A stretch of 64,000 nucleotides of DNA, taken from positions 5,131,122 to 5,195,121 of the forward strand of contig OX465580.1 in NCBI GenBank assembly GCA_950022655.1. The letters are read 5' to 3'. This document shows positions 3,101-57,074 of the stretch, piece after piece. Position numbers and translations under genes: made by a program. Position 1 is the first letter of the stretch, and each line of letters opens with the position of its first letter. The notes under the pieces were generated by a model. The model saw nothing but the letters and a program-made list of their open reading frames with translations. It ran no database searches and had not been told where the DNA came from. The DNA comes from Alentia gelatinosa. Lineage: Eukaryota > Annelida > Polychaeta > Phyllodocida > Polynoidae.

Positions 3101-6100
3101 CTGGTGTTGTGCTTGGTGTGGCGGCTGGGGTCGGGGAGGCAGGCGTGGCGGCTGTGGTGGAGGGTGTGTCAGACGCGCTGTTCACCGGATGCGATACATT
3201 GGGAGCTGACACTGATGACGTCATGGCGCGTGTCGGCGGGGAGGGCGCTGATAGCGCCATCTGGAGGCCCGGTATGGGTCTGGCCGGGGGCGCTGTGAAT
3301 AAAAAATAGGTAAATTCTACATTTATTCTTTTTCTTTTTACATCAAAATCCATGTAAACAACAAACAAGAGCTAAGAGTGCATTTTGAAATAGAAATATT
3401 GGCCTTTAAAGGCCAAATTAGCAGGTGGACGCATTTAAAACTCTATACAAGGTCCACCCATAATTAATTACTATGAGATCAAGGAAGCCCCCCAGGAGTT
3501 GGAAGGAATTGGAGATATAGGGGAGGGGGAAAGGGAGATGTTGGGTTACCATAGGAGAAACTTATACAAGTCTTGTGCATATCTTACAAGTCTTTGATTA
3601 CTGGGCCTGTCAGGTGTTTGGGGAATTTCATAAAGTAGTTTGTCTTTTTAAAATCTATGTCAGAATACTAAATAATAAAACTATAGGATATTGCATTGCC
3701 ATAAAACTTGTCCAGAAAAAAGAAATCATTTACCTATCTGTACTTAGTTATGGCTCCATCTAGTGTTAGTTTGTCATACTACAGGCTCCATGTTCAAAGT
3801 GAGGCTGAGCTTCAACCAGATACTTAGTGTTCTTATAAGGATATAGGTATAGGGCATGTGCCAATATGCTTGGAGAGTGACAGCAACTAGATTCCTCTGG
3901 GGGAACATGACTGCACTAAAATTCAAAAATGGCTGCTACCCCCCCCCCCCCCCATGCTCTGAAATTAGGCAAAAATACATGAATACATGCCAAATACAAG
4001 TTTAACCTAAATAATGACACTTCCTAGAGGGTAACCAACTGTCAGTGCCACTTATGGAGATGGTAAATGGTACACCAATGCTCACTGCAAATCATTATTG
4101 AGTAAACTTCTGTTTCAGTATGCCCATTCCAACCAAAATCCCCCCCACTTTCAACAAATACTTGAATATCTCAGTAAATATAGAATCTACCTAGAAAATT
4201 CCACTTCCTAGCACCTACTGCTTTTTATTCTCTTTCAAATGAGGCATATCATATTATGATTCAACCAGTTCGAGGGATAGAAATATGTGCATAAAGGAGT
4301 TCTTAAAAATGGACCTGTGACTACAATAGTCCCCCCCCCCCCAAACTGAATTCACTATTTTTTTTAAATCCATACCAAAATACTAAATATCTAAACTGTA
4401 AGGCATTGTACCACCATAAAACCTTCTGTCCAAAACAGAAATTATATTCCTATCTGTACTTAGTTAGCTATAAAAGGCAAAAATGTGGTCAGGTCATCTA
4501 GTGACTTTACAAGCATGTGTACTACATAGACAATAATCAATGGTTTTGTGGACAGGCAGCCGTAAACCACGAGTGGTTGACACGTAGTAATACACGAGCG
4601 CTGGCAAGTGTATTACGAGGTCAACTGCGAGTGGTTTACAGAGCTGCCTGTCCACAAAATAATCGTTTGTTGCATTTATTATCCATCTTTTTGAATGAAT
4701 TAAACCCAGTAATTGCCACATTAACGGGTATAACAATAGGAACTATTTCTTTGCTCTCTAGCAAAAGGGACTATTTTTCCCGTATACCATGGTTTTGAGG
4801 CCGTATACCACAGGTTTGAATCCATATACCACAGTTATGGTATCTGACAGGTTTTATACAATTGGTTGTGGTTTACTGAGTCCCCATACATTTTCAACGG
4901 GGGCTTTGTATACGATGAATAATAAAGTACGCTATAGCCATAACCTAAATGCCAACCGTCCACCTGCTAATAAGATATCCATGTGTTGAGACAGTCCAGT
5001 GGCGGAAGAGATCAGTTGTGAAACCTACCCTTATGTATCGATGCTATGTGAACATCTTGCTATTTACAACTATCTTTACACGAAACCATTGGTTATTTAC
5101 TTGCAAAAGGCCACTAAGACACCGAATTGTTGTAAAGAGACTGTTCTAATAAAGACTACATCAAACAGAATTGGGCGGCACTCCAGTTGTACATGTCTCC
5201 CTAACTGGTTATTTACTATACACCCATGCCGTATATGCTGTAAATACGTACTGCCTCACCATCTAACCTAAAAAATACTGTACATAACAGTGTTCCATAT
5301 TGTAAAATATGGAACACTGTTCCGTACATGTGGACTAAAACATTAATTGTTAGACAAAATTAAGTTAATACAAGCTACAAAACTCATTGATAATACACGG
5401 TTCATACGGAACTCGGCTTAAATGCCTCATTCCGTACAAACCGTAAATTAACATCGCGTTTTGTACCTTATACAGCATGGTCAGGACACTCTATGCAATC
5501 ACTTGATAAGATATCCATGTGTTGAGACAGTCCAGTGGGGGAAAAGACTAGTTGTGAAACCTACCCTTATGTATCGATGCTATGTGAACATCTTGCTATT
5601 TACAAATATCTTGACACAAAACCATTGGTTATTTACTTAATAAGATTTGTTTGTTTGTTTGTTGGATTGATTTAACATCCAGTCAACCATTATAGGTTCT
5701 TACCAGACTTTCTCAAGGTTCTTTTACACCACAAGGGTGATGATCGAATCTATGTATTGAATTCAGGTAGAAATCTCACCCCTTCACATTTACTGAGGTG
5801 AGAGTTCTTTTACTTCCCACACCACATAAACATGGTATGAGAATGATGGCCTTTGTTATAGCAGTAAATCTACCACTGCTGGGGGTGGGACTCAAACCCA
5901 CAAAGTCCTACAAGTCCTACAAGTCCGGTGCTCTAACCACTGAGCTAACTCCCCACCCCCCACTTAATAAGATATCCATGTGTTGAGACAGTTTGGTGGG
6001 GGTTGAAAACAGTTGCGAAACTCACCCTCGCGTATCGGTGCTATGTGAACATCTTGCTATTTACAAATATCTCTACACGAAACCATTGGTTATTTACTTA

Positions 6101-9100
6101 ATAAGATATCCATGTGTTGAGACAGTTTGGTGGGGGTTGAAAACAGTTGCGAACCTCACCCTCGCGTATCGGTGCTATGTGAACATCTTGCTATTTACAA
6201 ATATCTCTACACAAAACCATTGGTTATTTACTTAATAAGATATCCATGTGTTGAGACAGTTTGGTGGGGGTTGAAAACAGTTGCGAACCTCACCCTCGCG
6301 TATCGGTGCTATGTGAACATCTTGCTATTTACAAATATCTCTACACGAAACCATTGGTTATTTACTTAATAAGATATCCATGTGTTGAGACAGTTTGGTG
6401 GGGGTTGAAAACAGTTGCGAACCTCACCCTCGCGTATCGGTGCCGGTGTGGAGGAGGCTGGCGTGGATGGCGCAGACACAGACGTGGTGCTGTTGTTGGT
6501 GGCCGCGACAGCCGCAGCCTCCGCTGCCACGCGTACCTCCGATTCCTTCACCTTGGCTTCCTGTATGGCGTTCTCTGCCAACTTCTCCTGGGCTTGTCGC
6601 CGCTTCTCTGTCAGACTCTCCAGGAACCTGTAACGCGAGAACAAACTCTCCAAAGTGACGGAACATAAACACAGCAATGACGGCAGACGGTATCACAGAA
6701 AAATTGGAAATTTAAAACCATTTTTAACATCAACATAGAACATAGTGGCTAATATTGATATACTATAGAGGAAACCTATGAAAGTTTAGGGTCAGAGCTC
6801 GGATAACATCGAGTTTAAATCACATAGTGATTCACAAGGCGAAGCCACATGAATTACATAGCGATTCAAAAAGATAGGATCAAGCTCTGACCCTAAACTT
6901 GAAAAGGTTTCTGAATTTGTCTCACCCTTCACATTGACTAATGGGCTAACCTTTGTGAAATAGTCCCCTATTGAATATATTTTTTAAATACTCCATGGGC
7001 GTTGAATACGAGTTCCCAATGTTAATTCTATGGGGAAAAATACCAGGGGTGAGATAAATATGTATATACAGTAGACTCTCGCTATTGCGACCACCTTAGA
7101 AATTGAACAAATATCGTCACATTGGCGAGGTGGTCGCATTACAGACTAAAGGACAAAATCCACCAGGCCGATTTCTCACCCGATCAATTGTTCCTGGGCC
7201 CTTAAGAGGAAGCTCACGTATTGTAATTTATTTAATTCTGATAATAATAGTTAAATAAATGACCATTTTCAAAGATTTGAGCAATTCTAGGGCATCCGAT
7301 AATAATCGACGATTCTCTAGCTACGGAATCGGCTACCGTCGGTCCAGTGGAACCAGACCATAAGATAGCAGATACCATATCATGGTATCATAACATATTG
7401 ATATACATTTGATTATGGTTTCAGAGTGGGCTTCTATTTCTTAATTACACCTATGGTATCTGTTTATCTCATTTATACACCCTTTTTAAGGTATATAATT
7501 TAAAATATTCAGATTTAGACATACAGCTGGTCGCATTAGTGAGAGCAAGTTTGACATTTAGATCTTGAAATGAGTGGTCGCAAGAGCGAGGTGGTCACAT
7601 CACTTAGCATTTTGTAAACAATGACAAGAGGGTGAAATGTCCGTAATTAAGGGGTGGTCGTTTTAGTAAGTCAGGGTTCGTACATAGACAGCCTAATAAA
7701 ATTCCAGGCTTTTTCCAGGCTTTTCCAGGCTCTAATATTGTTTTTTCCAGGCACATCTGGTCACTGTTTTTAAAACCATGTCTGATTCATCACCAAATTT
7801 AGTCTTCCTTACTACCTAGAGGTTTGGGATAGATATCTTCAAAATTATTTTTTTGCCACTTTTAAATATGAAGACAAATAATCAAATCCATTCTATATTA
7901 TTAGCAATTTCCTAAACATGGTCAAATAAAGGATTTTTTGGAGCTATTTAATCCAAGTCACTAAAATTTCATTGGCAGTCAGGCTACATAGTTAAGGAAA
8001 GCTAATAATGACCAGAATTTCATAGACTAAAGAAAAAAGTTTTTATGCAAGACTAAATTTTCCAGGCTCTTCCAGGTTTTTCCAGGCTCTCTGTGAGAAT
8101 TCCAGGCTTTTCCAGGCCTGGAAAACCCAAAAGCATAATTCCAGGCTTTTCCAGGTTTTCCAGGCTCTGTACGAACCCTGGTAAGTCTACTCTATATACA
8201 TATTCTAATTTATTACCCAACTAATACAGAGTTTCCATACTAACCTATAGTACCTGCTAATCGCTACTGAGTAGAATATGGATAGCCATATTCTCCTAGG
8301 AGAATATTGAATAAGAAAAATCTCTGTCGTGCAAAGTTGTGCGTGGGAAAATTTTGTTTTTCCTTTGATAACTTATATTTAGAATGCGGACTAATAAATA
8401 CAACATTACCATGATTTTGATCTGCGTGGTCATATTTTCCTTGACCTTGACACTATGCAAAATCCTCACATTCGCTTCGACATTACTAGGCCTAAAATAG
8501 GCTGAGAATATGACTAGTTAAATTTGTATTTATCTTTATTATACTGCTATTTTTAGTATTTTTTAGAGAGATAGATGTTAAACTAAACAGGAGATGCCAC
8601 TCTAAAATGGCCATACTGTCAGTGCGTAGGAAATATTGTAATTCCGTCATTTGTCGGCAAACTTGCATCCATAGACCCTATTGAGGTATCCCAGAATTCA
8701 GTCTGTTTACAAGTTCCGGTGCTCGCTGGTTGCTGACATTGTATGGTGATAGACCCTTGAACCGTAACCCACAATTATCCAGTTTAACCGTTTTCAGAAA
8801 TCTTCAAATTGAAATTCTGATGCCAGATAAGGAAATTTCAGCTATTTCTACATATAAATCCGAAATTATATGTAGTTTCTCCAATTATAAATAAGGAAAC
8901 TGTGGTTCATGCGGTCGTGGTGTGCCCAGTCAGTCGCGAGCGGAACTTGTATTTACCCCGGGCGATAATGGGGAGTTTAGTAACCTCTGGAGGGCGTATG
9001 AATCTACTTTATAAATCAAGAAACACTTGTGCTACATTGAAAATGACAACTTGCTGTTAGTTCTAAACCATGTAACTATAGTTTTTTTTAATATTTTTTT

Positions 9101-21100: not shown

Positions 21101-24100
21101 TAGCTTTATTTAGCATTAAACCTATTACTATATACCCATGCCGTATATACTGTAAATATGCACCGTTTTGGCATATGACGTAAAAATACTGTACGGACAG
21201 CCGGTCCGTACACTAAAATACGGACCACCTAGCCATACACATTTATTAAAATTTTGGTTGTTAAGAAAAATGAAATTGATTTTTTTTTTTAAATTTCGGT
21301 TATATAGTAAATATATAACGTCCAACCATGCTTGTACAAGTCACAGAACTCGATGATAATTTACCGTTTGTACGGAACTTGGCATAAATGCCTCGGTCCG
21401 TACAAACGGTAAATTAGCATCTCATTGTGACTTGTACAGCATGGTCAGGACGTTCTATATAAATACTGATGTAGGTCACATGTTAAGAAGGAACGGCATC
21501 GAGATCCATAGCCACTGACAATATGCCATGAGTTTTGGTTGCAGAGTAATCTCACGAGGCACAGTCGAGTGAAATTGATCAGACCAAAATGAATGGGATT
21601 TTTTCAGCAGCTACGGCTTGAGTGTGGTTCAGATTTTATCTCACCACTAACTACTGACTAACGTTTTGACATTATTGCCCATTTAGTATATTTTTAGAAT
21701 ACTCCACGGGCGTTGAGTACGAGTTCCCAATGTTAAGTCTATGGGGAAGAAATACCAGGGGTGAGATAAAGACCCAGAATAATACATGACCAGAACCTAC
21801 ATCCTAAATCCAGTTTAGAATAATCCTGGTAGGATAGTTAGAACACAAAATACAAATGTATTTTCTTGCCATTATGAAATATCATCTTAAAAAAATAGTC
21901 TAACGTCTATCAGAAGTATCATGAAAGTCTTCAGAAAAAGGCAGAAATTTCTAAAAGTCAACTATTCATCTTCAGTTAAATGAAAATTCACACAAAAATG
22001 GAAATATCAAGAAAACTTACACCTATGATCTATGTAAAGGTATGAATTCTGGTACAATTTTATCACTGATTTGAATGTCAATAGTTGTGTTTTTTTGTGT
22101 GTTTTTTTTTGGACCGAGTGGCTTCCCACATAACTGCAATGAGTAAAGTATAACCTAAATTACCATGATTTTTATCTGTATGGTCGTATTCTCTACGCAG
22201 TTGACATGCAGTAATATCCGAGCCAATGTGAGGATATTGCATATCATCAACTATGAGGAGAATACGACCACACAGAAAATCATGGTAATGTTGATTTTAT
22301 TACTCAGCATTGCAAATCTAAGCTATCAAAAAAAAGTAAAAATAGATAAATAAATAATTAAAAAGAAAAAGAGTTATCAAAGACAAAATAGCAACCAATA
22401 TTCTCACGGTTTATTTTTCCGTATTCTCCTGGGAGATTATAACTCTCTATAATCTCCTCGGTAGGGCCCTCATGACTCTATACGTTTATATTGACAGGTT
22501 TGTATTTGGTAGAAAATAATTAAAAGGAAACTCACGAGATGAAAATTACTTTGTCCGTACTCCATCGAGTTTGACCGCAGAAAATTCATGAAGCGAAGCT
22601 GAGTGAATTACTCTGCAGTCAAACAAGGTGGAGTACAGACCAAGTTATTTTAAATCGAGTGGGTTTCTGATTTTATCTCACCCCATATAACATTATCAAT
22701 TAATAAAATGAATCACCCAATTAGCCATTGAGTATTGGGTACACTACCTTCACAGCCATGTAGTATGAGTTCCTAATGTTAAACCTATGGAGAAATATAC
22801 CGGTGTTAGATAAAGACTTATACTCACCGGTTGAGGTCTTCGATGAAGTAGCGAACCGAGTCTTCGGTCACAGTTCGGTGATGCCCCATGTCTCGGTGGT
22901 TGGCCAACACCAGCACAGGAATGTGATTAGGAACCTTCGGCAACTCCCTCTGAACATAGTCAAATGTCCTGTGTGAGAGAGGAGAAGTTGACAGGTTATT
23001 ATACCAGAGATGTCAGTGGGGCCTAGAAAAAACCCTGGAAAATATCTGAATCCTGATTTTATTACCCACCAAATACGGAGTCTCCATAGGAAATGTATAG
23101 AGCACCTGGAAACAGGTACCGGGAGATTCTGACATGTCAGAATCTCCTGCAGGAGATTCCGGAAAAAAGTCCCATCCATAACGAGGTCAAATTATCATGT
23201 ATTTCAAAATAAGTTTTTGGAATGTTCATTCAATATCAATCATTTAAAATCAGTCATAATAATCTCATTTACCATCAGAAATCACTGGCAGAGCATGCTT
23301 TTCACGCTAAAATCAAGGGGAAATGGCGAACTATATTATTGGTGTAGGCTTGTCAGTGCTGTGGTGTTTGGAAGTAAATGTCTTGCAGAAATATATTTAT
23401 TGCAATAAATTTGTTATCAATCTTGAAGGTGGGTAATAAATACAATAACGACTGGTTTTGTATGCGAGTGACCGTAATCTCCTTGTAGTTGACGGCGTAA
23501 TATCCTCGCTAATCATTTGGATATTACTACGCGTCAACTCCTCAGATATTACGGCCACTCGTACACAAAACCAGTCATTATTGTGTATATATCCACTATT
23601 CCTATATACACATTTACGAAACCTCTATAGTTACATACCGCTGCTGGGGGTGCAGTAATTATGAGTTATGTATTGAGGGTGATGTTTTCGTCCCAGGCTG
23701 ATGTTTTCGTCCTGGGCTGACCATATGATATAAAGAGCGCCGAGACATAGCTGTTACAGTTACTCAATGATGGTGGCCATTTTTCTTGGGGCTATCATAA
23801 GTAAAGAAATAACCATTGTTATGAATATTTTAGTTCAATTTACCACTGTTTAGTGATGTTTGTTTGTTTGTTTGTTTGTTTGTTTGTTTTGGTAGTTTAT
23901 TGTCTGATGTGTTCTATTAGACTTATTTTGGGTTTGACCAAATCTATGTAGATATCTCACCCCTACACATTTACCGAGGTGAGAGTTCTTTTACTTCCCA
24001 CACCACATAGACATGGTATGAGAAGGATTGGTCTTTGATATAGCAGGAAGTCTACCACAGCTGGGGATGAAGGAGAAATGTGGCTGTACACCACACCACA

Positions 24101-27100
24101 CAGACATGGTATGAGAAGGACTGGTCTTTGATATAGCAGGAAGTCTACCACAGCTGGGGATGAAGGAGAAATGTGGCTGTACACCACACCACACAGACAT
24201 GGTATGAGAAGGACTGGTCTTTGATATAGCAGGAAGTCTACCACAGCTGGGGATGAAGGAGAAATGTGGCTGTACACTACACCACATAGACATGGTATGA
24301 GAAGGATTAGCCTTTGATATAGCAGTAAGTCTACCACTGCTGGGAATGAAGGAGAAAACTGGCTGCACTGGTATTTAAACCCACAATGTCCTACGACCTT
24401 GGGATTACAAGTCCAGTGCTCTTTACCACTGAGCTAACTCCCCACCCTGGTCACTTTTGTTATGCTTGTATGCAAACATATTTGCCCTGCAGTACGTAGA
24501 GGCAAGGCGACCAAGAGGGTGAACAGATTGATAATTGCTGTCCACAGCTATATATATGACAGTTCTACTTACCACTGTTTTGTGATGTCAGTGGGTCGGT
24601 TATAAATCAGACAGTTCTACTCACCACCGTTTAGCGATGTCAGTGGGTCGGTTATAAATCAGACAGTTCTACTTACCACCGTTTAGCGATGTCAGTGGGT
24701 CGGTTATAAATCAGACAGTTCTACTCTCCACTGTTAAGCGATGTCAGTGGGTCGGCTATAAATCAGACAATTCTACTCTCCACTGTTTAGCGATGTCAGT
24801 GGGTCGGTTATATATCAGACAGTTCTAGTCTCCACTGTTTAGCGATGTCAGTGGATCGGCTATAAATCAGACAGTTCTACTTACCACTGTTTCGTGATGT
24901 CAGTGGGTCGGTTATAAATCAGACAGTTCTACTCACCACCGTTTAGCGATGTCAGTGGGTCGGTTATAAATCAGACAGTTCTACTTACCACTATTTAGCG
25001 ATGTCAGTGGGTCGGTTATAAATCAGACAGTTCTACTCACCACCGTTTAGCGATGTCAGTGGGTCGGTTATAAATCAGACAGTTCTACTTACCACTGTTT
25101 AGCGATGTCAGTGGGTCGGTTATAAATCAGACAGTTCTACTCATCCCTGTTTAGCGATGTCTGTGGGTCGGTTATAAATCAGACAGTTCTACTCACCACT
25201 ATTTAGCGATGTCAGTGGGTCGCTTATAAATCAGACAGTTCTACTCACCCCTGTTTAGCGATGTCAGTGGGTCGGCTATAAATCAGACAGTTCTACTCAC
25301 CACTATTTAGCGATGTCTGTGGGTCGGTTATAAATCAGACAGTTCTACTCTCCACTGTTAAGCGATGTCAGTGGGTCGGCTATAAATCAGACAATTCTAC
25401 TCTCCACTGTTTAGCGATGTCAGTGGGTCGGTTATATATCAGACAGTTCTAGTCTCCACTGTTTAGCGATGTCAGTGGATCGGCTATAAATCAGACAGTT
25501 CTACTTACCACTGTTTCGTGATGTCAGTGGGTCGGTTATAAATCAGACAGTTCTACTCACCACCGTTTAGCGATGTCAGTGGGTCGGTTATAAATCAGAC
25601 AGTTCTACTTACCACTATTTAGCGATGTCAGTGGGTCGGTTATAAATCAGACAGTTCTACTCACCACCGTTTAGCGATGTCAGTGGGTCGGTTATAAATC
25701 AGACAGTTCTACTTACCACTGTTTAGCGATGTCAGTGGGTCGGTTATAAATCAGACAGTTCTACTCATCCCTGTTTAGCGATGTCTGTGGGTCGGTTATA
25801 AATCAGACAGTTCTACTCACCACTATTTAGCGATGTCAGTGGGTCGCTTATAAATCAGACAGTTCTACTCACCCCTGTTTAGCGATGTCAGTGGGTCGGC
25901 TATAAATCAGACAGTTCTACTCACCACTATTTAGCGATGTCTGTGGGTCGGTTATAAATCAGACAGTTCTACTCACCCCTGTTTCGTGATGTCAGTGGGT
26001 TGGTTATAAATCAGACAGTTCTACTCACCACCGTTTCGTGATGTCAGTGGGTTGGTTATAAATCAGACAGTTCTACTCACCACCGTTTAGCGATGTCAGT
26101 GGGTCGGTTATAAATCAGACAGTTCTACTCACCCCTGTTTCGTGATGTCAGTGGGTTGGTTATAAATCAGACAGTTCTACTCACCACTATTTAGCGATGT
26201 CAGTGGGTGGGTTATAAATCAGACAGTTCTACTCACCCCTGTTTAGCGATGTCAGTGGGTCGGTTATAAATCAGACAGTTCTACTCACCCCTGTTTCGTG
26301 ATGTCAGTGGGTTGGTTATAAATCAGACAGTTCTACTCACCACTATTTAGCGATGTCAGTGGGTCGGTTATAAATCAGACAGTTCTACTCACCACCGTTT
26401 AGCGATGTCTGTGGGTCGGTTATAAATCAGACAGTTCTACTTACCACTGTTTAGCGATGTCTGTGGGTCGGTTATAAATCAGACAGTTCTACTTACCCCT
26501 GTTTAGCGATGTCAGTGGGTCGGCTATAAATCAGACAGTTCTACTCACCACTATTTAGCGATGTCAGTGGGTCGGTTATAAATCAGACAGTTCTACTCAC
26601 CACCGTTTAGCGATGTCTGTGGGTCGGCTATAAATCAGACAGTTCTACTCACCACCGTTTAGCGATGTCAGTGGGTCGGTTATAAATCAGACAGTTCTAC
26701 TCACCACTATTTAGCGATGTCAGTGGGTCGGCTATAAATCAGACAGTTCTACTTACCACCGTTTAGCGATGTCAGTGGGTTGGTTATAAATCAGACAGTT
26801 CTACTTACCACCGTTTAGCGATGTCAGTGGGTCGGTTATAAATCAGACAGTTCTACTCACCACCGTTTAGCGATGTCAGTGGGTCGGTTATAAATCAGAC
26901 AGTTCTACTCACCACCGTTTAGCGATGTCTGTGGGTCGGTTATAAATCAGACAGTTCTACTCACCACCGTTTAGCGATGTCTGTGGGTCGGCTATAAATC
27001 AGACAGTTCTACTCACCACCGTTTCGCAATGTCAGTGGGTCGGTTTTAAATCAGACAGTTCTACTCACCACCGTTTAGCGATGTCGGTGGGTCGGCTATA

Positions 27101-30100
27101 AATCAGACAGTTCTAGTCACCACTATTTAGCGATGTCAGTGGGTCGGTTATAAATCAGACAGTTCTACTCACCACTGTTTCGCAATGTCAGTGGGTCGGT
27201 TTTAAATCAGACAGTTCTACTCACCACCGTTTAGCGATGTCGGTGGGTCGGTTATAAATCAGACAGTTCTACTCACCACTGTTTCGTGATGTCCATCATC
27301 ATTATGACGCCGTGGGTTCCTTTGTAGACGTCGATAAACTCGGCATCCAGACACGCGTCCCCCGTCAACTGTGTGGATGTGAAAGTCTTACATCAGATTT
27401 CCGCTGTGTGAAAAATCCTGTATCAAATCTCTTGTTCCCGAGTGTGAAATCCTAATTCTCAGTTGGGTGTGTGTGAAAATCCTGTATCAAATCTCTTGTT
27501 CGTAAATATTTGCAGTTAGGTGTAAAAGTTTAAATACAAATTTTAGCGGTCGAATGTAAAAGTATCCTATCAAATATATTCATTGGAAGGACTATACAAT
27601 TACTAAAAAAAATGAAAAAAGACATTATTCTATCAAGATATAAAATGTCTTGTATGCAAGTGTAAAATTCTAACAGTAAATCTTAGCTCTGCGCTACTGT
27701 GAAAGTACTCAATCAAATACCTGTTTTTTGGGGTTTGAAAACCTTATGTCAAGTATGTTATGTAGTTTGTATAATTGAAAAGAGTTAGGTAGATGTTAAG
27801 GTGTGGCATGAGCTCAGATAATTGATTGTGAAAGTGTAAAATCCTTGCTGTTTTTCCCATGAGAAACCTACAGCAACAATATCTTTTTACCAAATTCAGG
27901 GATGAAAGTCAGTACTCCTGATTAAATCAGAAATCTAAAACCCTTAAAAAAGAAGCATTTATAACTTTATTTTGGAACATAATGGCTATGAAGCGATATA
28001 TATTTTTAATTTCTCTTGATGAGACGGTTACTTTTAGTATTTGAAGGGGGATAGATGTGAAAGTTAACGGATGCCGCTCTAACATTGCGGTGTTGTCAGA
28101 GCGTACGAAATGTTGGAATTCTGTTATTTTTCAACTAACGTGCATCCATGCAAATCTGACGAAAACCTCCACCATAATTGTACGTATTTAGAATCTACCA
28201 CCAACAGTTTACTAATCATTTATCATGTATTTATCAAATACAGAAGTCCACATGGACAACTTGAAACCATTTATCTGGAGTTTGAGTTAACTTGTCAAGT
28301 TTGAGGGTTGTTCTATTTTGTTGATTTAATCATTTATCAGTACCACCCATGTTCTCAAACCTGAGATTACTTATGTTTAGTAAGGACTATGTTCTTGTAC
28401 AGTAATTTCCTAATTATGGGACATCGACTTTAGATAGCACCACCTGCAGACCAGACAATGGAGAAGCTGTCCTCATTTCTTAACTTTTTTTTTAATCTTA
28501 GTTTATTTTTTTCAGTTTCTTCCCATGATAAATAAATATGACCGCTTAGGCTTTTCCGAGATGTATTAGTAGTCTTCATTTTTACTTTGTAAAGCACTCA
28601 CAACTAGCTTCATGTTTTACAAGGAAAACATAACAAGATTAATAACGTAAAGGTTCCATAGCAACAGCTTAAACATATAAAAAACAGAATACATTTAATA
28701 TATTTATATCGTACGGTCATTGACAACACTTAAAATCCATGCACCAATAAATACTAAATAATACACACATCAATAATCAGAGTAATTAAAATGAAAGAGA
28801 ATCAAAGTCAATTTCCAACAGGCGACAGAATTTCCAAGCTCGATAATTTTAGGATGAAGAGGGTTATAGGAACATTACTCAAAACATGTAATTACTGAAT
28901 TTGGGAAGCTGGTATGATGTAAAACTTTTGAAATATAATTTATTTTGAAGAAATAAAAATGTGCTATGAACCCAATTCAATTTACGTGAAATAGTGAAGT
29001 CTTCTTGCAAAATCTACAGCAAATATGAAATCTGTGCTGCTAGTGGACTTTGACTTTTAGACAGGGGCCCGTTTAATAATCTAGGATCGTACATGTAGAC
29101 CCTTTCTGTATGCCATAGAGACCCAGGGACGATGTGGGTCAACTTTACTCAACACTTATGGACGACCTTATGGACGACCAATACTGTCTTAGCGAACAGA
29201 CTTAAATATTACCAAACGATAACCCTTGTACGAGATACATAAAAAGGTCTTCATGTACGATCCTAGATTAGTTAACGGGGCGGTGGAGGACTTGACCATG
29301 CATACCGTTTTATCACCAACATCGGCGTCACTCTGAGCTTGCTCTTGTGCTTGAGCTGCAGCCTTAAAGGTACAGGGAACAACGAACTATAACATAAACA
29401 ACTACATCAAACAAACAACTAACAACTAAAACAACCTCCACTCGGGGTAACTGAACAAATGGAGGGTAAAGTAGACAGTCGGTATCTGCTTTGTAAATGG
29501 CGATGATAAGTTTGTTTTATTTGATGAATTTGTATTTATTTCTGTTATCACAAAGTAAAACTCATAACTCTGACACGTGTCAGTGGTCGCAAAGTAGAAT
29601 TCATAACTCTGACACACATCAGTGACCACAGAGTAAAACTCGTAACTCTGACACACATCAGCGATCACAAAGTAAAACTCATAACTCTGACACGTGTCAG
29701 TGGTCGCAAAGTAGAATTCATAACTCTGACACATGTCAGTGATCACAAAGTAAAACTCGTAACTCTGACACACATCAGTGATCACAGAGTAAAACTCGTG
29801 ACTCTGACACACATCAGCGATCACAGAGTAAAACTCGTGACTCTGACACACATCAGTGATCACAGAGTAAAACTCGTGACTCTGACACACATCAGTGATC
29901 ACAAAGTAAGACTCGTAACTCTGACACACATCACTGGTCACAAAGTAAAACTTGTAACTCTGATATGCATCAGTGATCACAAAGTAAAACTCACAACTCT
30001 GACATGCATCAGTGATCAAAGAGTAAAACTCGTGAATTTGACACACATCAGTGGTCACAGAGTAAAACTCGTGAATTTGACATGCATCAGTGATCACAGA

Positions 30101-38631: not shown

Positions 38632-39021
38632 TTTATTTGTTTGGGTAGTTTAACGTCCAATATGTTCTATTAGATTTGGTGGTGATCCAATCTATGAGAT
38701 AAATTTAGGTAGAAATCTCACCCCTACACATTTACCAAGGTAAGAGTTCATTTAGTTCCCACACCACATAGACATGGTATGAGAAGGATTGGCCTTTGAT
38801 ATAGCAGTAAATCTACCACTGCTGGGGATGAAGGAGAAAGGTGGCTGTAAACCACACCACATAGACATGGTATGAGAAGGACTGGCCTTTGATATAGCAG
38901 TAAATCTACCACTGCCGGCAGTGAAGGAGAAAGTTGGCTACAGTGGGACTCAAACCCACAAAGTCTTAAAACCTTTGGGTTACAAGTCCAGTGCCTTAAC
39001 CACTAAGCTAACTCCCAACCC
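38632..39021 (-). mobile_element. 93-bp-family SINE, copy 6 (two units)
   Basis: Tail TTTGTTTGGGTAGTTTAACG, two 93-bp units and a tRNA-like head (GGGACTCAAACCCACAAAG to AAGCTAACTCCC). Intergenic, left of the CRE pair. Confidence 0.78.
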
Positions 39022-40115: not shown

Positions 40116-40244
40116 TGTATTTATTATCTACCTTTTCTGGACAAGTGGCATGTCTATATCAGTTTGTTTTAGCTATGCACTATTTTTCCATATGTGCTCC
40201 AAGGAGCATACAACATATCCGTATGTGCAGGATATGTCCATACA

Positions 40245-41110: not shown

Positions 41111-41224
41111 TGGTAGAGTACAGTACAGTTACCGTACAGTTAACTAGTACGGCTGTTGTTGTTACATATAATCCGTACCGTATTAAACAATACAAGCACA
41201 AGACAAAAACAGCGACATAACACG

Positions 41225-46576: not shown

Positions 46577-46579
46577 TTA

Positions 46580-48312: not shown

Positions 48313-48456
48313 TTAATCGTAGTCATCATCATCGTCTTCTTGTTTGACCGTTTGTTGAGCTTGCTGCATTAACTGTTGTTGCTGTTGTTGTTGTTGTGCT
48401 TTGGCCTGCATTTCCAACCACTGTTGTTGTTCTAGCGCTGCTTGTTCTTCCCTCGC
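48313..48456 (-). CDS. DR1: DR1 last coding exon (Q-rich, acidic tail)
   Basis: Residues 129-175 and TAA. Acceptor TACTTTCAG|GCGAGG. It encodes REEQAALEQQQWLEMQAKA, eight Gln, then a KQEDDDDDYD terminus, consistent with the Q-rich and acidic end of the family. Confidence 0.93.
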   Translation of the reverse strand, partial: AREEQAALEQQQWLEMQAKAQQQQQQQQLMQQAQQTVKQEDDDDDYD

Positions 48457-51400
48457 CTGAAAGTAACGGGGATATACACAATGTTGACTGGTCTCAGATA
48501 CAAGCGGCGTAACCTCTGGGGAAGAGATGCGTATTACTATATACCTATGGCCGAATACTCTATGGTTACACCACGCTCCGGGGGGTGGAATAACATATGT
48601 TTACTACCCACGGCTGACCTTTACTACCCAAGGTTGATGTTTAGACCAATCAGATCGTCTCTTACAAAATTCATATGAAAAGCAGTTGGGGAGAAAGCAT
48701 AGACTGTCAAGTTACTTGATAAGCCTGGAACTGGCTTCACGTTTGAAACTATTAAACACTATTCATCATTATCTATCTACATTTGAAGGTAGCTAACTCT
48801 AACTTATATGCGAAAAAAGTTTATCGAGGAATATGGTGATATTAACGAAGTCAACACTGGAGCTGATACCCAAAATGAACCAACCAATACAGGTATGGTC
48901 TTAAGATCAGATAGAAGGCTTATGTTTAAACTGGAGAGACCGAATACTGAGTTTTTTGAAAAATCGCCAAGCTATAGGGGTAAACAACTGTGGAATAAAT
49001 TAAATAAAGATGTTAAGGGGGGCCCTACAAAGGTCATGTTTAAATCGCGTCTGAGAAATCTCGATGTAATATAATCGCATAATATAATCATCTAAGATAA
49101 CACCTACCCATATATAGCCAACTGTTACCTGTACTATAACGCTTTTGTCATGTACATAGTTACCCCTTTGCCAGTACTGTGCATACTCTATAACCTATTT
49201 GGTGATTTGAACACATTGGTCATCATATCTTGCAGAGATAACCCCTATTCATTTTTACTGAAGTTACAATCTTAATTCCATCTCTCAATATTTCTGATAC
49301 TTTACTTTAACGTGACCCTGTGTTGAAGGTATTTCTTGATTTATTATTCATCACACACATCTCATTTTCATTAATAACATTATTGTACGGTGGTGGGGCA
49401 TCTAAGATGCAAATGCTAGGTTTGTCTGCTTACTAGACTTTTCTCAATCCGCTGTTGGATATGTAGAACAGGATCTACCCATGTATATCGAAAAGGATTT
49501 CTTGTACTCAATAGACATACCACAAAGGAAGACCAGCCTCGTGATGATTTGTGTGTGAATAAAAAAAAAATATATATAAAAAAAGGTATAAATGAATAGG
49601 GAAACCAAGCTTCCCGGAGAGATAAAGTCAAAGTTACTCGGTAAGGCTCGAAAAAAATTACTGCCCACAGCTAAGGCCATGGGCAGTAATTTTTCTGAGC
49701 CTTAACTCATAACTTTGACTTTCTCTCACCAGAACATAGTTTCCCTCTATTCCATTATATACTTAATACAAAGTCTCCGTAATAAACCTATAGACAGTGT
49801 GTATTATCCACTTAATACCAAGTCTCCATACTAAACCTATAGGGAGTGTGTAATTCAGTAGCCTTAGATTACATGTGGTCGTAATCTGCCACCTATGCAG
49901 AGCAGAGATTACGTTTAAAAAAGAGTCCCAGCATACAAAGTGGTATGTGAGAAGATTGGTAGACATTTCGTCTTTTCTTTGATAACTTCAAATTATAGTG
50001 CTGAATGATAAATACTATCGTAAAACCTGATGAGGTTTAATCTTGGCCACCGTATTCCACGACTGAAGTTTGGCAAAGCGACTTCATGAGGCGAAGCCGA
50101 GTGAAGTCCGCAGCCAAAACTTCAGGAGTGGAATGCGGTGGGCAAGATTAAAACGAATCAGGTTTTGATTTTATCCTACCCTATCTCCTCGATTTTGGAA
50201 TATTACGTGAAAACAATGCTGTATGCCACTAGTGGCATATAAAACTCTGTATCAGTCAGCGTGGCATACGAAAACCCAATGTTAAGCCTATGGGATTTTA
50301 TATTAGGGGTAGGATAAACAATAAAATCTAGTTTCAGATAAAAGCCGTCATAATCTCCTTGGATTAGACTCTACGTAATATCCTCACGTTCACTTGGATA
50401 TTACTATTAGGAGACATGGATGTTGTGATAATAAAATGGGATAAATTCAGTTTGTGATCATGTGACTTAACATATAATAAACAATTTTTTATTTTCATCA
50501 TGCCAATCGGTCCTGTAAGGACACACTTAAAAAAGATAAGTAACAACTCACCTTGGCAAAAAGTTCCTGTTGTTGCCTTAAAAGTTCCTCTTCTGGAATT
50601 CCCAAGTTCTCTAACTTTGAGGATGCTCGGCGTTTTTTGGCAGCGACTGCTTTTGCCTCTTGTAGGACTGCCTCGGCATCTTCCCGGTAAGACCCGAAAC
50701 CCAAACTGTCTAAGGCTGAAAGATAGAGATCAGTTTATAGAGCATGTATAGTTCAACAAAAGAATTAGTAGAAACTGAACGAGAGTTAGACTTGTCAGTG
50801 TTTATGCCACGATGGGAAGGTCGTGTATTACTATGTGAAGCGTTAGCTGAGCATAGTGAGGAACAGACCTGACCGGAGTTCGGTTTCGTATTTATCCTAC
50901 CCAGTCTCTACGCTTTTGGATTACTAAAATATAAATATCGAGTGAACGACCAACCAAAGTCCAACCGGAACTTTTGAGTCCAACCGGACCTTTTCTCAGA
51001 GCAGCTCACAATCTGGTTGCTGATTGGTCGATTTTTTATGCCCCTAAAGGCATAAATCGCACTTTATGTCATGGCATGCCGCATAAAATTTGCCTATGTT
51101 ATGCCTAGGGACCGTTTTTATTAGGGGTAGGATAATGGGCCCTACCATCCAGAAGAAAGAAATAGGAACTAGAACTTATTGCATTCCAATTTTTCTGTAT
51201 CGTGTATGTGAAACATACATGCACTTTCACTTGGTGTAACTAATTATGCTGTCTCCTAGTAACACTCCACTGGAGGAGCCCCTTGGTTACTGCGAGCTCA
51301 AGCGTAAATTTTACAGATTGGGGCCATCCATAAAGTATGTACGCAGAATTTCTGAAATTTTGGACCCCCCACCCCCTCTCCCAATCTTGTACGCAATAGA

Positions 51401-52808
51401 ACAAAGAGGGAGCATATGCAGATTTTCCAAAATTTCTGACCCCCCACCCCCCCTCGGTGCGTACATACTTTATGGATGGCCCCATAGTAAAGCAGTAAGA
51501 TAAGCCGTCCCAATTAGGTTAACTAGTTTCCCTAAAGTACTCAAAATGAAAAAGTGGATTTTCATGGAAAAAGACCATCTTTGCTATGTTGTTTGCATTA
51601 ATATATAGAAAAAAGTGGTATTTGGAAACAAATTGTGTATGGACAGAACAAGATAAAGACCACATATAAATTTATGTGAATCTTTGTACAATAAAAAGAA
51701 AGTGGGCCACACTACTGTCTTGAGTAAATTATAAAGTCTTGTGGTGTGTAGTTCTGTCAGTCTAACCTTCATCATATTCTTCTCATTGTCATGATTGTCC
51801 TACTCTAGACCCAAATTCCATATTATATTACAGTCTTGTACAATGTCCCATGTACCATGTCTAATAATGTTTTATTCTTCTTTAATGTCATCTCCAGTCA
51901 CCCATATTGGGTACACTAGGGACTGCTGATTGGAATATTTATATAGAACGTCCTGACCATGCTGTACAAGTCACAGAATGAGATGGTAATTTACGGTTTG
52001 TACGGAATGAGGCATTTATGCCGAGTTCCGTGAAAACCGTAAATCATCATCGAGTTCTGTGACTTGTACAAGCATGGTTGGACGTTATATATTTACTATA
52101 TACCCAAAATTTAAAAAAAAATCATTAATTTAATTTTTAACAACTGATATGTTAATAAACGTGTTTGACAAGGTGGTCCGTACTTTAGTGTACGGACCAG
52201 TGGTCCGTACAGTATTTTTACGTTATATGTCAGAACGGTACGTATTTACAGTAAATACGGCATGGGTATATAGTAAAGTTATGAACTAAATTCATAGATA
52301 GTCAGAGAGAACCATAAAGAACTCTGAGTAACATGAATATTCACCTTACATACTGATACATATTAAAAAAGAGTCAAAACATAAAAAGATCATGGCAGCA
52401 AAGAAACAGACCACAAGGTAATACAATCCTTTTATTGGTGATTAACAGAATTATTCATATTAAGACCTGTAAAATCTGAAATGGCTGATTGAATTTGAAA
52501 TTAATTTTTTTTTTTCGGCTTGTAGTAGACGTGTCATAGCCACGTCTCACGAATTTGAATTTGAAATTAAAAAAAGGGCCACACTGACCTTGTAGAACAT
52601 GCTCAGGTGATATGGTTTTCTTGTGGCCACGGTTACAGATGTCGTTGGCCTCAGAGGAGAGAAGGTGGATGAACTCGGTGCAGCAGTTGAGGATCAGTTC
52701 TCGGGCATCGTTCGCAACTCGTACGTTCGGAACGAGCTCTTTAATCATCTTATTGAGAGCGGCACGGGGAATGCTCAAGTCATCATCCTCTTTTGGGTCG
52801 GACATCAT
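48313..52808 (-). CDS. DR1: DR1 / NC2-beta, TBP-binding histone-fold repressor, three coding exons
   Basis: Spliced CDS join: 52589-52808, 50552-50715, 48313-48456; 175 codons plus stop, against 176 residues in human DR1. Residues about 11-80 form the H2B-like histone fold (IPRAALNKMIKELVPNVRVA, then CTEFIHLLSSEANDIC and KTISPEHVL). Exon 3 gives LDSLGFGSY and LENLGIPEEELLRQQQELFA, the hallmark of DR1. The last exon is glutamine-rich with eight consecutive Gln and ends in a DDDDD acidic tail. With DRAP1, DR1 forms NC2, which binds TBP on DNA and blocks TFIIA/TFIIB entry. The start was chosen at the first ATG of the tandem ATGATG; an upstream GTG is non-coding. All splice phases agree. Confidence 0.96.
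48640..49570 (+). mobile_element. 5'-truncated LINE relic (ORF2 C-terminus at 48808-49074)
   Basis: The 88-codon frame ends with RPNTEFFEKSPSYRGKQLWN and then DVKGG, similar in pattern to the C-terminal YRGALEWN block of the intact LINE at 53-56 kb. A possible 3' tail, GTGTGTGAATAAAAAA, lies near 49555. Located in the last DR1 intron. Confidence 0.5.
49590..49740. repeat. foldback element with ACAGCTAAGGCC loop
   Basis: Stem AAAGTCAAAGTTACTCGGTA and AATTACTGCCCA paired with the right side around CAGCTAAGGCCATG. The ends (GAGAGATAAAGTC, CTTTCTCTCACC) resemble the TTATCTCACC module of the main foldback family. Confidence 0.6.
50022..50325. repeat. bipartite foldback element with ATGAGGCGAAGCCGAGTGAA loop
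   Basis: About 60-bp stem (AAAACCTGATGAGGTTTAAT outer, GCAAAGCGACTTC inner) and complement; loop as named. Then TTTTATCCTACCC ... CCCAATGTTAAGCCTATGGG ... AGGGGTAGGATAAAC. Confidence 0.8.
50552..50715 (-). CDS. DR1: DR1 middle coding exon
   Basis: Residues 74-128. Acceptor ATCTTTCAG|CCTTAG; donor GCCAAG|GTGAGT. It encodes LDSLGFGSYREDAEAVLQEA and LGIPEEELLRQQQELFAK, nearly identical to vertebrate DR1. Confidence 0.96.
50770..51140. repeat. foldback element, decayed stem
   Basis: Loop TGTGAAGCGTTAGCTGAGCA, stem remnants (ACGAGAGTTAGACTTGTCAG), then TTTATCCTACCC and AGGGGTAGGATAATG. The stem resembles the 18.1 kb copy. Confidence 0.6.
51320..51483. mobile_element. GGGGCCATCCATAAAGTA MITE, intact
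   Basis: A 164-bp copy with perfect ends GGGGCCATCCATAAAGTATG and complement, G/C tracts inside. Located in a DR1 intron. Confidence 0.85.
51943..52280. repeat. multi-hairpin element, copy 3 of 3 (inverted)
   Basis: Reverse orientation of 21125-21465: starts TATAGAACGTCCTGACCATG, then the long hairpin, then GTGGTCCGTACTTTAGTGTA and ends TACGGCATGGGTATATAG. Confidence 0.75.
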
Positions 52809-52814
52809 TGACAC
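52589..52814 (-). CDS. DR1: DR1 first coding exon (histone fold)
   Basis: The exon begins at 52814 after ACATTTTCAG with six untranslated bases, then ATGATG. It encodes residues 1-73, most of the histone fold. Donor CTACAAG|GTCAGT, phase 1. Confidence 0.94.
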
Positions 52815-52983
52815 CTGAAAATGTACAGATATGCCTTTATTACAAATATATCACATAAATATACATAATTATTTAAATAGTTCCACATCATTAACACATG
52901 TAATTGTACCGATATGCCTTTATTATGAATATATTCCATAAATATACATAATTATTTAAATCGTCCTACATCATTGACACATG

Positions 52984-55900
52984 CCCCCTGTCCCCCCCCT
53001 ATTTCCCCTAAATGAGGACTAACTGGGTAAAATTTCCTGTCCACCTACTTACCTGTGACACATATCAACTAATTGCAATAAGTCAAATCGAGGGAAACAA
53101 GCCCAGAGTGGCAAAGTTAGGCCGAAATAAGGACACTAAACCGAAGGTGAGCCAGAACTATAGTTAAGAGTTACACCTAATTAACCTGTTCGTTTCCTCT
53201 TTGTGGGACTGGCACCCTGGTGTTTGCCAAACAAACAAGTTATATAACTACTATGAACCCAGGCAGTCATGGACTGTCAGGCGATAACAACCGGCCTCAG
53301 ACATCTTGGTTATCTTCCGCAACTAATAATGTTGACCGAAGGGGGAGGCAGTGAAAGCCATAAACTCCCTAACTTAGTGACTACATGTATCAAAGCCGAA
53401 TGTGTAATAATCGGAAATGATTGTCAAACTAGAGTAATATCTAACAATAATGGCATTTGATGTGGTGAGGGACGCGAGAGGTCTGAAGATGGGTCACCTA
53501 AATATACGGAGCCTTCTAGGGGGGTACGATGTTTTTGCGGCACAAATAGACGATATTTTTGATGTAATGTCTATCTCCGAAAGCTGGCTCAAAGAGTCAA
53601 TACCATCAGACTTAGTCAATCTTAGGGACTATAACTTGTACCGACTAGACAGAGCATGGTGTGATGAAGGGAAAACCGAACCAAAAATAGGTGGTGGTAT
53701 ATGTACGTATGCTAGAAAAGGTATTGACTTAAGACAAATTGAAATGGGCTTATTTGATGTCTCAACCAAGGATGCTGAGGTACAATGGTTTGAAATCCAC
53801 AGACCAAATCAAATGAACATTATTTATGCAACTATCTATCGACCACCGTATGGATCGGTGTCCGACTTTATTGAGTATCTACAAAGCACTCTAGACAAAA
53901 TAAAAAAAACCAGGAAAATTATCATTCTTAACGGAGACTTTAACATAAACATTAGGGATGCAAATGACAATGACACAAAAGCACTAAAAAACTGGTTAAG
54001 GGCATACGGTCTATCACAGATTGTCAAAGAGCCAACAAGAGTAACAGATATAACATCAACCTGTATTGATTTGATAGCCACTAACTCAGAGCAAATTAAA
54101 GATAATGGTGTGATCAAGGTTAACCTTAGCGATCATTCACTAACCTACCTAGTTATGGGAAAGCACAAAATAGTTACTGAAAAAGAAACCTTTAGTGGGA
54201 GATCGCATAGGAACTTTGACTACACTAAATACCAAGACATGATTAAAAAATCAGACTGGAAGGACTTTGACACAGAGAATAATGTTGACACTGCTTGGGA
54301 TATGATGCTCTCAATTTTCATGGATAATCTCGACAAACTAAGCCCGATCAAAACTTACACTATCAAAAAAACTAAAGAACCTTGGCTGAGCAATGAAGTA
54401 CTCGAACTTATAAGAGACAAAGACCTTGCCCTCAAAAAAGCCCACAAGACAAACAAAGGTACAGACTGGGAGATAGCACGTAAATTGAGAAACCAAGCCA
54501 AAAAAACCACAACACATGCAAAATCAACTTATATCAAAGATAATTTAGAATCATATAAGGACGACAGTAAGAAATTTTGGGGTGAGATAAAGAAGATTCT
54601 GCCAGGAAGGGATAAGCAACAGAAGATAACTTTAGTCCATGACAACACAAATGCAACAGTCGAAGAAAATGAAACATGTAACTATATAAACTCATTTTTT
54701 GCCAATATCGGCCCCGAGTTAGCTGCTAAATTTAAAGGAAACTGGGTGGCACCACCCATAGACTATGATTGTGAAATCAACGATATAGAGTTTGAGGAAG
54801 ACGAGGTGCGAAAACTAATAGATGAAATCAATATTTGGAAGTCGACTGGTATCCCAGGTATCACCGCTCGTTTCCTTAAATCGGCTCTACAAGCCACAAC
54901 AGACAAACTATGCTATCTCTTCAAGTTGTCACTCAGAACAGGTAATTTTCCCGCTGCCTGGAAAGACGGTTTAATTGTACCGATCCCCAAAGAAGGTAAC
55001 CCACACTCAGTTAATAATCTAAGACCAATCACTTTATTGCCCATCCCTGGGAAACTACTCGAAAAGGTCGTACATTCAAAGTTAATCAATTATCTAGAGG
55101 GAAATAGTATACTGATACCAGAACAGGGTGGTTTTAGGCCAGGTTATTCGACATCTGAATCCGTTTCCAAATTAACTAAAGACATTTATGAAGCAATAAA
55201 TAATAGAATGTTAACAATAGCGGTTTTCATAGATCAAAAAAAAGCATTTGATACGGTTAATCACAAAATTTTAATTTCAAAATTATCAAAAATTGGGGTA
55301 AAGGGAAAGCTACACACATGGGTTACAAACTATTTGAATGGGAGAAGACAACGAACAATAGCGAATAGTACCACCTCATCATGGTTAGATGTAAGATGTG
55401 GAGTCCCACAGGGGTCCATTTTAGGACCCCTGTTTTTTCTAGTATACATAAACGATGTTGTAAGATGTATTGACAAATGTGCTTGTAAGTTATACGCAGA
55501 CGATTTGGTTGTATACACGTCTAATAGGGATATTAACGCAGCAGCAGAAAATCTTAACAAATGTCTAAATAGTATTAATAAATGGTGTACGGAAAGTCAA
55601 CTTACTGTAAATGAACGAAAAACAAAGTATATCATTTTTGGGTCGAGCCAAATGATCAAAAAGTGTGCAAATGTGAAGATAATGCTGAATGATGTACAAC
55701 TTGAAAGAGTGACCACATACAAATATTTAGGGATCTATCTGGATCAGCATATGACCATGTCGAAACATTTTGACAATGTAGTCAAACTGGTGTCGCACAA
55801 AATGTTCATCTTGTCAAAAATTCGTAAATATCTGGATGTCAATAGTGCAACGCTGCTGTACAAAACAATGATACTCCCGTACATTGACCACGGTGATACG

Positions 55901-56767
55901 ATATACGACTGCCTTCCGAATCATAAGTTAGAAAAACTGCAAAATATGCAAAACCGCTGTTTGCGTCTATGTCTTAATAAAAATACACATGTACCAGTGA
56001 TACGCTTACATCAACTTGCAAAGATAGCCAACCTCAAAGCCTGTAGAAGAGCAAGAGTAAGAAACTTCATGTATAAACAGCAAAAATTCGAAGATCTATG
56101 TGAAACCCCAAATGAAGGTAACGTAACCCGTCTTTATGATGCACCTGTGTTCAAGGTAGTTAGACCGATAAACGAAATGTACAAAAGATGTCTGTTTTAT
56201 CGTGGGGCACTCGAATGGAATGAGATGTCTAGTGATGTAAGAAATATAGAAAATTATGATGACTTTAAAAGATTCCAAAAATGGTGGTCACTAGGGTATA
56301 ACTGGCCTCACTTATAGACAAGTTGTGATATCCATTTAATCTGCTGTTGAAATATTGGGTGACCTTGCAGACCGAGAAGCGCCACACCCACTGATAGATA
56401 CAGTACTGTACCATGCAAAAATGACATGCGACTAAATTATCGCCATTACATAGTGACGTAGAATTGGAAAATTTTCCGAACAGTGATGAAGCGCTTGCGA
56501 ACCAACTACGAAGAGCTAATGGCAATTGGATGACACAGGAGGCATACTAGGATGATGAACAATCACTAAATAATGCGAAACCTTATATTATTTCTGATAT
56601 TTCTTTATTCACGGATCTGTACATAACATGTATTTTTGTAGAGAAAGGATGACTATGTCAAGCAAAACCAGGTAAACAGCCATGTGAGTGATGTAAGGCT
56701 GGAACCGAAATCAAACCGGCTAACAACCGATCGTTTTCCAGGATAAATAAAGAATTCAAAAAAAAAA
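52984..56767 (+). mobile_element. CR1/L2-like LINE inserted in the DR1 acceptor array
   Basis: The flanks reconstruct one 83-bp repeat unit when the element is removed, which sets the boundaries. The 5' part is about 460 bp without a recognised ORF; the 3' UTR of about 440 bp ends in GGATAAATAAAGAATTC and a short A tail at about 56767. Only a 3-bp ATG is shared by the two flanks, so any target-site duplication is very short. Confidence 0.8.
53450..56317 (+). CDS. LINE ORF2: AP-endonuclease plus reverse transcriptase, 955 aa, intact
   Basis: Non-LTR retrotransposon polyprotein of the CR1/L2/Jockey-like group. The endonuclease occupies about residues 15-240: NIRSL (18-22), catalytic Glu in SISESWL (Glu44), GDFNIN (Asp163, Asn165) and SDHS (227-230). 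The reverse transcriptase covers about 500-745: LRPITLL, QGGFRPGYSTSE, FIDQKKAFD (Asp595), GVPQGSILGPL and the active site YADD (682-685). The C-terminal YRGALEWNEM block is typical of LINE tails and is seen in relics elsewhere in the window. No stop or frameshift interrupts 955 codons, so the copy is young or active. No ORF1 is seen in the roughly 460 bp upstream, so the element may be 5' truncated. It lies opposite to DR1 transcription in the DR1 5' intron. Confidence 0.9.
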   Translation: MAFDVVRDARGLKMGHLNIRSLLGGYDVFAAQIDDIFDVMSISESWLKESIPSDLVNLRDYNLYRLDRAWCDEGKTEPKIGGGICTYARKGIDLRQIEMGLFDVSTKDAEVQWFEIHRPNQMNIIYATIYRPPYGSVSDFIEYLQSTLDKIKKTRKIIILNGDFNINIRDANDNDTKALKNWLRAYGLSQIVKEPTRVTDITSTCIDLIATNSEQIKDNGVIKVNLSDHSLTYLVMGKHKIVTEKETFSGRSHRNFDYTKYQDMIKKSDWKDFDTENNVDTAWDMMLSIFMDNLDKLSPIKTYTIKKTKEPWLSNEVLELIRDKDLALKKAHKTNKGTDWEIARKLRNQAKKTTTHAKSTYIKDNLESYKDDSKKFWGEIKKILPGRDKQQKITLVHDNTNATVEENETCNYINSFFANIGPELAAKFKGNWVAPPIDYDCEINDIEFEEDEVRKLIDEINIWKSTGIPGITARFLKSALQATTDKLCYLFKLSLRTGNFPAAWKDGLIVPIPKEGNPHSVNNLRPITLLPIPGKLLEKVVHSKLINYLEGNSILIPEQGGFRPGYSTSESVSKLTKDIYEAINNRMLTIAVFIDQKKAFDTVNHKILISKLSKIGVKGKLHTWVTNYLNGRRQRTIANSTTSSWLDVRCGVPQGSILGPLFFLVYINDVVRCIDKCACKLYADDLVVYTSNRDINAAAENLNKCLNSINKWCTESQLTVNERKTKYIIFGSSQMIKKCANVKIMLNDVQLERVTTYKYLGIYLDQHMTMSKHFDNVVKLVSHKMFILSKIRKYLDVNSATLLYKTMILPYIDHGDTIYDCLPNHKLEKLQNMQNRCLRLCLNKNTHVPVIRLHQLAKIANLKACRRARVRNFMYKQQKFEDLCETPNEGNVTRLYDAPVFKVVRPINEMYKRCLFYRGALEWNEMSSDVRNIENYDDFKRFQKWWSLGYNWPHL

Positions 56768-57074
56768 ATGTAAATGTACCGATACAGACTTATTATGAAT
56801 ATATCACACAAATATACATAATCATTTAAATAGTCCCACATCATTGACACCTGTAAATGTACCGATATGCCTTTGCTATAAATATATCACATAAATATAC
56901 CTAATTTTTTAAATCATCCTACATCATTGACACATGTAGGTGTACCGTTACACATTTATTATAAATATATCACATAAATATATGTAATTATCTAAACAGA
57001 CATCATTGGCACCTGTAATTGTACCGATATGCCTTTATCATAAATATATCACATAAATATACATAATTTTTTAA

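Follow-up and report, generated by a model that had tools for sequence, protein, structure and literature searches.

A 64,000-nucleotide window of DNA from Alentia gelatinosa (contig OX465580.1 of assembly GCA_950022655.1, positions 5,131,122 to 5,195,121) contains two adjacent genes, RABL6 and DR1, in which four minisatellites start inside an exon, cross the neighbouring splice junction and run on into the intron. Repeats of this kind have been described in amphioxus under the name of mirages (PMC3087553, PMC3902484), so that a sequence-only reading of the window, which knew of no named system like this, was mistaken on that point. We consider it probable that the four arrays are neutral minisatellites of the mirage type, that is, duplications straddling a junction that are tolerated in the intron and protected in the exon copy. 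The kind of repeat is already known, and the arrays described here are new members of it in what is probably a new branch of animals.

RABL6 was rebuilt on the minus strand as exons 1-12, from 37732 down to 1 and continuing past the window end, and its identity is backed by named relatives in a protein search. The coding exons of DR1 (52589-52814, 50552-50715, and 48313-48456, minus strand) encode a protein that matches NC2 beta (1jfi_B, E 1.1e-72) and a histone-fold family. For each of the 28 splice junctions of the two genes, 20 exon and 30 intron bases were searched against the whole window by blastn-short (E<=0.01). Four junctions had same-strand copies: in RABL6, the donor of exon 1 (9 matches), that of exon 5 (53), and that of exon 9 (3), and in DR1, the acceptor ahead of the start codon (3); 23 of the remaining 24 junctions had no copy in the window and one had a single 16-bp match on the opposite strand. 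The junction on the 5' side of DR1 is a predicted acceptor, and its leader exon is likewise a putative one. Tandem Repeats Finder (TRF), run on the whole window, returned 54 rows that include all four arrays. The results agree with the sequence-only reading that the arrays are independent, that they sit at three donors and one predicted acceptor, and that their units measure 89, 52, 134, and 83 bp. Its intron numbering needed correction: the RABL6 arrays exist, but those assigned to introns 4 and 8 lie in introns 5 and 9, a 57-bp exon (29306-29362) having been overlooked. A 39-bp array resembles this exon 4 by eye, which we take to be chance; neither exon 4 junction has a copy.

The four arrays include 18 (89-bp), 17 (52-bp), 16 (134-bp), and 13 (83-bp) exon bases, and comparison of the units bore out that each full unit consists of an exon tail plus the splice site or a decayed form of it. 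In the 89-bp array the 10 copies share one invariant 24-base junction string, with variation confined to the rest of the unit. The 52-bp array keeps a strict 52-bp step through its 53 units with zero length changes, and a block of 12 consecutive units (624 bp) has been duplicated identically. The older copies of the 134-bp unit are about 78-79% identical in the junction half versus about 95-97% in the intron half; over their whole length, CpG transitions make up 5 of 21 and 4 of 18 changes. A LINE-like element interrupts the DR1 array; its A-tract borders the far half, and its open reading frame (ORF) has matches of at most 43% identity among the best 120 of 255, one of them a named fish match at 31%. 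Diverged copies lie past the exon-side array at all four loci, in the form of a single 28-bp match at the 52-bp locus and of the far half of the split array at DR1. Extension of the arrays into the intron is supported, and protein homology suggests that the exon-proximal copy is the authentic one, as had also been proposed. A transposon origin of the four junction units was rejected, because within the window (E<=1e-4) they recur solely within their own introns, with zero further same-strand copies elsewhere; in contrast, the first 93-bp array of the window matches five further places. The features are listed in Table 1.

Table 1. Exons and array features of RABL6 and DR1 in the window; a slash marks the exon-intron boundary.
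Feature	Position	Strand	Basis
DR1 5' leader exon (tentative), donor CAA/GTAAGT	58958..59090	-	Sequence reading alone
DR1 first coding exon; predicted acceptor ...TTTTCAG/GTGTCAATGATGTCC	52589..52814	-	Gene model; NC2 beta protein match
RABL6 exon 1 from ATG; authentic donor ACA/GTAAGT at low end; final 18 bases are the copied stub	37603..37732	-	Gene model; tail conservation
RABL6 exon 5; authentic donor GTG/GTGAGT	27277..27368	-	Gene model; tail conservation
RABL6 exon 9; authentic donor AGG/GTGAGG	6428..6627	-	Gene model; motif in near relatives
89-bp array, 9.8 copies by TRF (10 including the authentic junction, the last partial)	36742..37620	-	Tandem Repeats Finder
Relics of 89-bp unit, two diverged copies, about 75% identical	36211..36397	-	Similarity to unit
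52-bp array, 52.6 copies by TRF (53 units)	24558..27293	-	Tandem Repeats Finder
Relic of 52-bp unit, 28 bp, past tRNA-like/93-bp repeat	23832..23859	-	Similarity to unit
134-bp array, 3.6 copies, 99-100% identical	5962..6443	-	Tandem Repeats Finder
Older 134-bp copy; piece of tRNA-like/93-bp repeat between copy and array	5501..5646	-	Similarity to unit
Second older 134-bp copy	4968..5102	-	Similarity to unit
83-bp array, exon side, 2.2 copies	52802..52983	-	Tandem Repeats Finder
83-bp array, far side, 3.8 copies, separated by LINE-like insertion	56769..57080	-	Tandem Repeats Finder
LINE-like element ORF (endonuclease and reverse transcriptase) inside 83-bp array	53438..56314	+	ORF and domain matches

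The direction of copying can be judged from the RABL6 protein, for which the best 120 of 1550 relatives were compared. The copied tail of exon 1 codes for GVQYN, followed by an M that is split by the intron, and GVQYNMK is present in 114 of the 120. The tail of exon 5 codes for MDITKQW, with the W split by the intron; DITKQW occurs in 80 of the 120 and the pattern D.TK.W in every one. The tail of exon 9 codes for PIRE, then A, and the motif spanning this junction was found in 8 of the 120, including all seven other rows of the tree group to which the window belongs. The closest listed relative, compared at the protein level, reads through all three copied junctions normally. Because these exon tails are conserved protein, copying is taken to have run from exon to intron, and the RABL6 exon would be the source of its array, a conclusion that is secure at exons 1 and 5 and, at exon 9, holds inside the tree group of the window. 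The copied stub of DR1 is mostly untranslated leader plus ATGs, and conservation cannot date the direction there. Among 37 exon-internal positions, none had a same-strand copy within 6 kb.

At each junction, the units themselves show that a short segment was duplicated in tandem, one that starts 13-18 bases into the exon and finishes within the intron. The arrays would then have lengthened via slippage or unequal exchange, with block duplications such as that of the 12 units; they have also aged at the far end and been broken up by transposons, as the relics and the split array show. The conserved protein suggests that the exon-side copy stays intact as coding sequence and as a working splice site. 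The intronic look-alike sites are most likely ignored, because a stub of this length is too short to bring the exon's enhancers with it; limited exon context reportedly weakens duplicated splice sites, according to work by Reed and Maniatis in 1986. If a decoy donor were used, translation running past the authentic donor would stop about 17 codons on in the exon 1 array, 1 codon on in the exon 5 array, and 20 codons on in the exon 9 array, ahead of the first decoy, and the message would probably decay. The intronic copies are thus most likely neutral, and the protected exon copy may serve as a seed for regrowth that cannot be lost, so that junction arrays may be over-represented or may outlive purely intronic ones. 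The conservation of the RABL6 tails, the presence of copies at 4 of 28 junctions and their absence from exon-internal positions count for this explanation, and so do the exact step and identical block of the 52-bp array, the relics at all loci, the LINE-like split, the loss of splice dinucleotides described below, the early stops, and the amphioxus parallels.

How the decoys have fared is best seen in the 52-bp array, in which the mean minor-base fraction is 0.075 at exon-derived columns and 0.074 at donor columns versus 0.026 at other intron columns, the share of variable columns being similar (12 of 24 exon-derived and donor columns versus 15 of 28 for the rest). GT is gone in 8 of its 52 decoys, and AG is gone in 3 of the 5 decoys of the 83-bp array. 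Together with the two old 134-bp copies, which are most decayed in their junction half, these figures argue against the idea that decoys are kept by selection, e.g., as splicing brakes or poison sites reducing the output of RABL6 and DR1. Selection for decoys, which the sequence-only reading had raised, is therefore not generally supported, the 89-bp array pointing the opposite way, and we regard it as very unlikely, even though decoy donors would lead to premature stops. Several observations nevertheless weigh against neutral mirages, and some of them favor this alternative. By a simple donor score weighted with donor-site base frequencies, 37 of the 52 decoys of the 52-bp array equal or exceed the authentic donor, and it is not obvious why such strong sites would be ignored. 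Across the eight full decoys of the 89-bp array, none of the 24 junction columns is variable versus 12 of 67 others (P 0.019, a value that ignores the shared ancestry of the copies); constraint, or else conversion between array and exon, may lie behind the invariant junction string. Support for persistence is weak as well: in a relic test on five other arrays, two weak matches were found for the 25-bp array and one doubtful match for the 39-bp array, with none for the 34-, 73-, and 29-bp arrays, and short units give less power, so that longer survival of junction arrays than of purely intronic ones is only suggestive. A match at 6444-6470 in this test is a self-match due to the boundaries of the query. 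Finally, 112 of the 120 RABL6 relatives gave no match to the exon 9 tail, whose age has been shown within the window's own group only. This restricted occurrence, like the DR1 stub that conservation cannot date, would fit copying in reverse, with older repeats having spread across the intron boundary and given rise to the exon ends of today. That direction is largely refuted at exons 1 and 5, whose tails almost every listed relative shares; it is also opposed by the presence of the exon 9 motif in each of the seven other rows of the group and by the confinement of the junction units to their own introns, and it is most improbable overall.

Whether four junction arrays are more than chance would give, as the sequence-only reading asserted, depends on the null chosen, and all nulls were chosen after the pattern had been seen, in a single window. 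From the 54 TRF rows, 20 loci were taken, of which 19 or 9 were used in the placement and founding tests and 18 in the rotation test; the rows omitted were four 93-bp arrays, which form a repeat family, the far part of the 83-bp array, which belongs to a locus already included, periods below 20, and arrays already counted. Counted per position (50-mers with a same-strand copy within 6 kb), junctions are not enriched, with 4 of 28 (14%) versus 292 of 1378 intronic positions (21%). Counted as founding duplications that span a junction, four were observed versus 0.19 (9 arrays) or 0.24 (19 arrays) expected, with P values of 1.7e-5 and 6e-5. The assertion therefore holds for founding events and fails for repeated positions. 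In our judgement the founding count is the more relevant null, because the units carry an exon stub. Joint rotation of 18 arrays gave P 0.00024 for at least four arrays with 10-30 exon bases and P 0.18 for at least four with at least 10 exon bases. When arrays were placed at random ignoring exons and at least 10 exon bases were required, 2.0 (9 arrays) or 2.5 (19 arrays) overlaps were expected, with P 0.10-0.22 for at least four. Tolerating up to 30 exon bases lowered the expectation to 0.115 or 0.226 (0 of 200000 runs, and P 4.5e-5), and tolerating 5-60 exon bases gave 0.46 or 0.85 (P 0.0006 and 0.009). The clustering of exon reach at 13-18 bases has P 0.0007, 0.0035, and 0.03 if reach is uniform over 5-100, 5-60, and 5-30, respectively.

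The founding counts, the narrower rotation result, and the tight exon reach are what would be expected if mutation linked to splicing or transcription, such as R-loops at exon ends or pausing at splice sites, made duplications start more often at junctions than at other places in introns. Such a process is compatible with the mirage label and differs from neutral mirages only over why junctions are hit. However, junctions are repeated no more often per base than introns, the excess fades in the placement test without an exon limit and in the wider rotation test, the window and the tests were picked after the pattern was noticed, and longer survival of junction arrays predicts an identical excess. 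We consider a mutational preference of this kind rather unlikely, and a founding or survival bias at splice junctions in general is suggestive but unproven.

The neutral mirage reading draws its name from amphioxus, and its closest parallels are found there. As far as the cited accounts describe them, amphioxus mirages have units of 10-160 bp, occur at both 5' and 3' boundaries and are unstable in length, with splicing apparently undisturbed; the globin genes BflGb6 and BflGb9 carry them, the BflGb6 array having 3 or 6 copies (PMC3087553). The same authors regarded the generating mechanism as unclear and proposed mirages as a route to new introns (PMC3087553). Mirages are also described in lancelet troponin C and PGBD5 (PMC3902484), and an Adh3 mirage in amphioxus is credited to Canestro et al. 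2002, as cited. The arrays reported here share with these accounts the tandem, minisatellite-like copying of an exon-intron boundary, splice signals that are intact in some copies and lost in others, and turnover within the array. Their units span the boundary, with the exon overlaps given above, both boundary types are represented if the predicted acceptor is counted, and unit lengths of 52-134 bp fall inside the reported range (PMC3087553). They differ in that four arrays occur in two adjacent genes and one reaches 53 units, compared with the few copies described for BflGb6, and in that the host groups with lophotrochozoans; a cephalochordate host is where mirages have been reported and is not part of their definition. 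Internal tandem repeats at exon-intron boundaries have been described in human genes within segmental duplications, where expansion can alter gene structure and splicing (PMC2812944). In that account the search was confined to recent paralogues and about half of the repeats are located in coding exons, whereas the arrays of the present window are intronic and leave the exon intact. Intron gain via tandem genomic duplication, as described in PMC4974935, shares the copying of splice signals; the genes studied here give no sign of a new intron. Arrays carried by transposons, of which the 93-bp repeat of the window is an example, are unlike the four units, which are confined to their own introns. 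A 1995 study is said to have described a minisatellite over an exon end of IFI6 whose units carry a splice donor. The repeated donor at an exon end is shared with our arrays; in IFI6 the repeated donors are reportedly used, whereas those described here are known from sequence alone. Among the records listed in searches of openly accessible papers, no mirage was found outside amphioxus, and we do not claim their absence from print.

Placement of the host was based on RABL6. Among the best 120 of 1550 matches, the closest relative is 74% identical overall and 90% identical over 288 columns; the best species-named matches are Lingula (53%) and nemerteans, then molluscs, and Branchiostoma is absent among the named rows. 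In a 32-row tree, the window and its closest relative form a pair (100/99) within an eight-row group that includes two nemerteans (95/94) and stands apart from molluscs, Lingula, and Owenia. The window is not amphioxus-like, and we infer that its RABL6 is lophotrochozoan, from a tree in which no sequence is of known deuterostome origin.

Other repeats and elements were noted around the two genes. A dispersed repeat occurs at 919-1472, 2189-2277, 5817-5887, 23998-24365, 35156-35710, and 38759-38939; where read, it consists of a tRNA-like head and then one to six 93-bp units, a SINE-like element with its own minisatellite. One copy adjoins the 52-bp array and another sits among the 134-bp copies. 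A degenerate interstitial telomere-like GGGTTA tract lies in a RABL6 intron at 17183-17287. Upstream of RABL6 is a 73-bp array (40240-41114), and an inverted, diverged piece of its unit is found in a DR1 intron at 49756-49852. The far half of the DR1 array is adjoined by a 29-bp array (57083-57441), whose unit (CCCTAACGTCCTGACTTTCAG), on visual inspection, resembles a branch site plus acceptor and may provide further decoy acceptors. ORFs of a Ty3-like retrotransposon (60498-64000), with a weak aspartyl protease, reverse transcriptase, RNase H, and an integrase zinc domain, run out of the window.

The occurrence of four mirages in two adjacent genes of an animal of the lophotrochozoan grouping suggests that mirages are no peculiarity of cephalochordates. 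These arrays make it straightforward to ask, genome-wide, whether minisatellites are founded or preserved at splice junctions, and their natural series of identical donors provides a ready experiment on how the spliceosome chooses the right site. More speculatively, and as a proposal in which our confidence is low, junctions could be where minisatellites preferentially arise, or where they are sheltered over long periods, in animals from amphioxus to lophotrochozoans; the stub of 13-18 bases could be the longest that can be copied without decoy use, and mirages could constitute a general stock of ready splice sites, replenished again and again, from which introns are gained and exons shifted.

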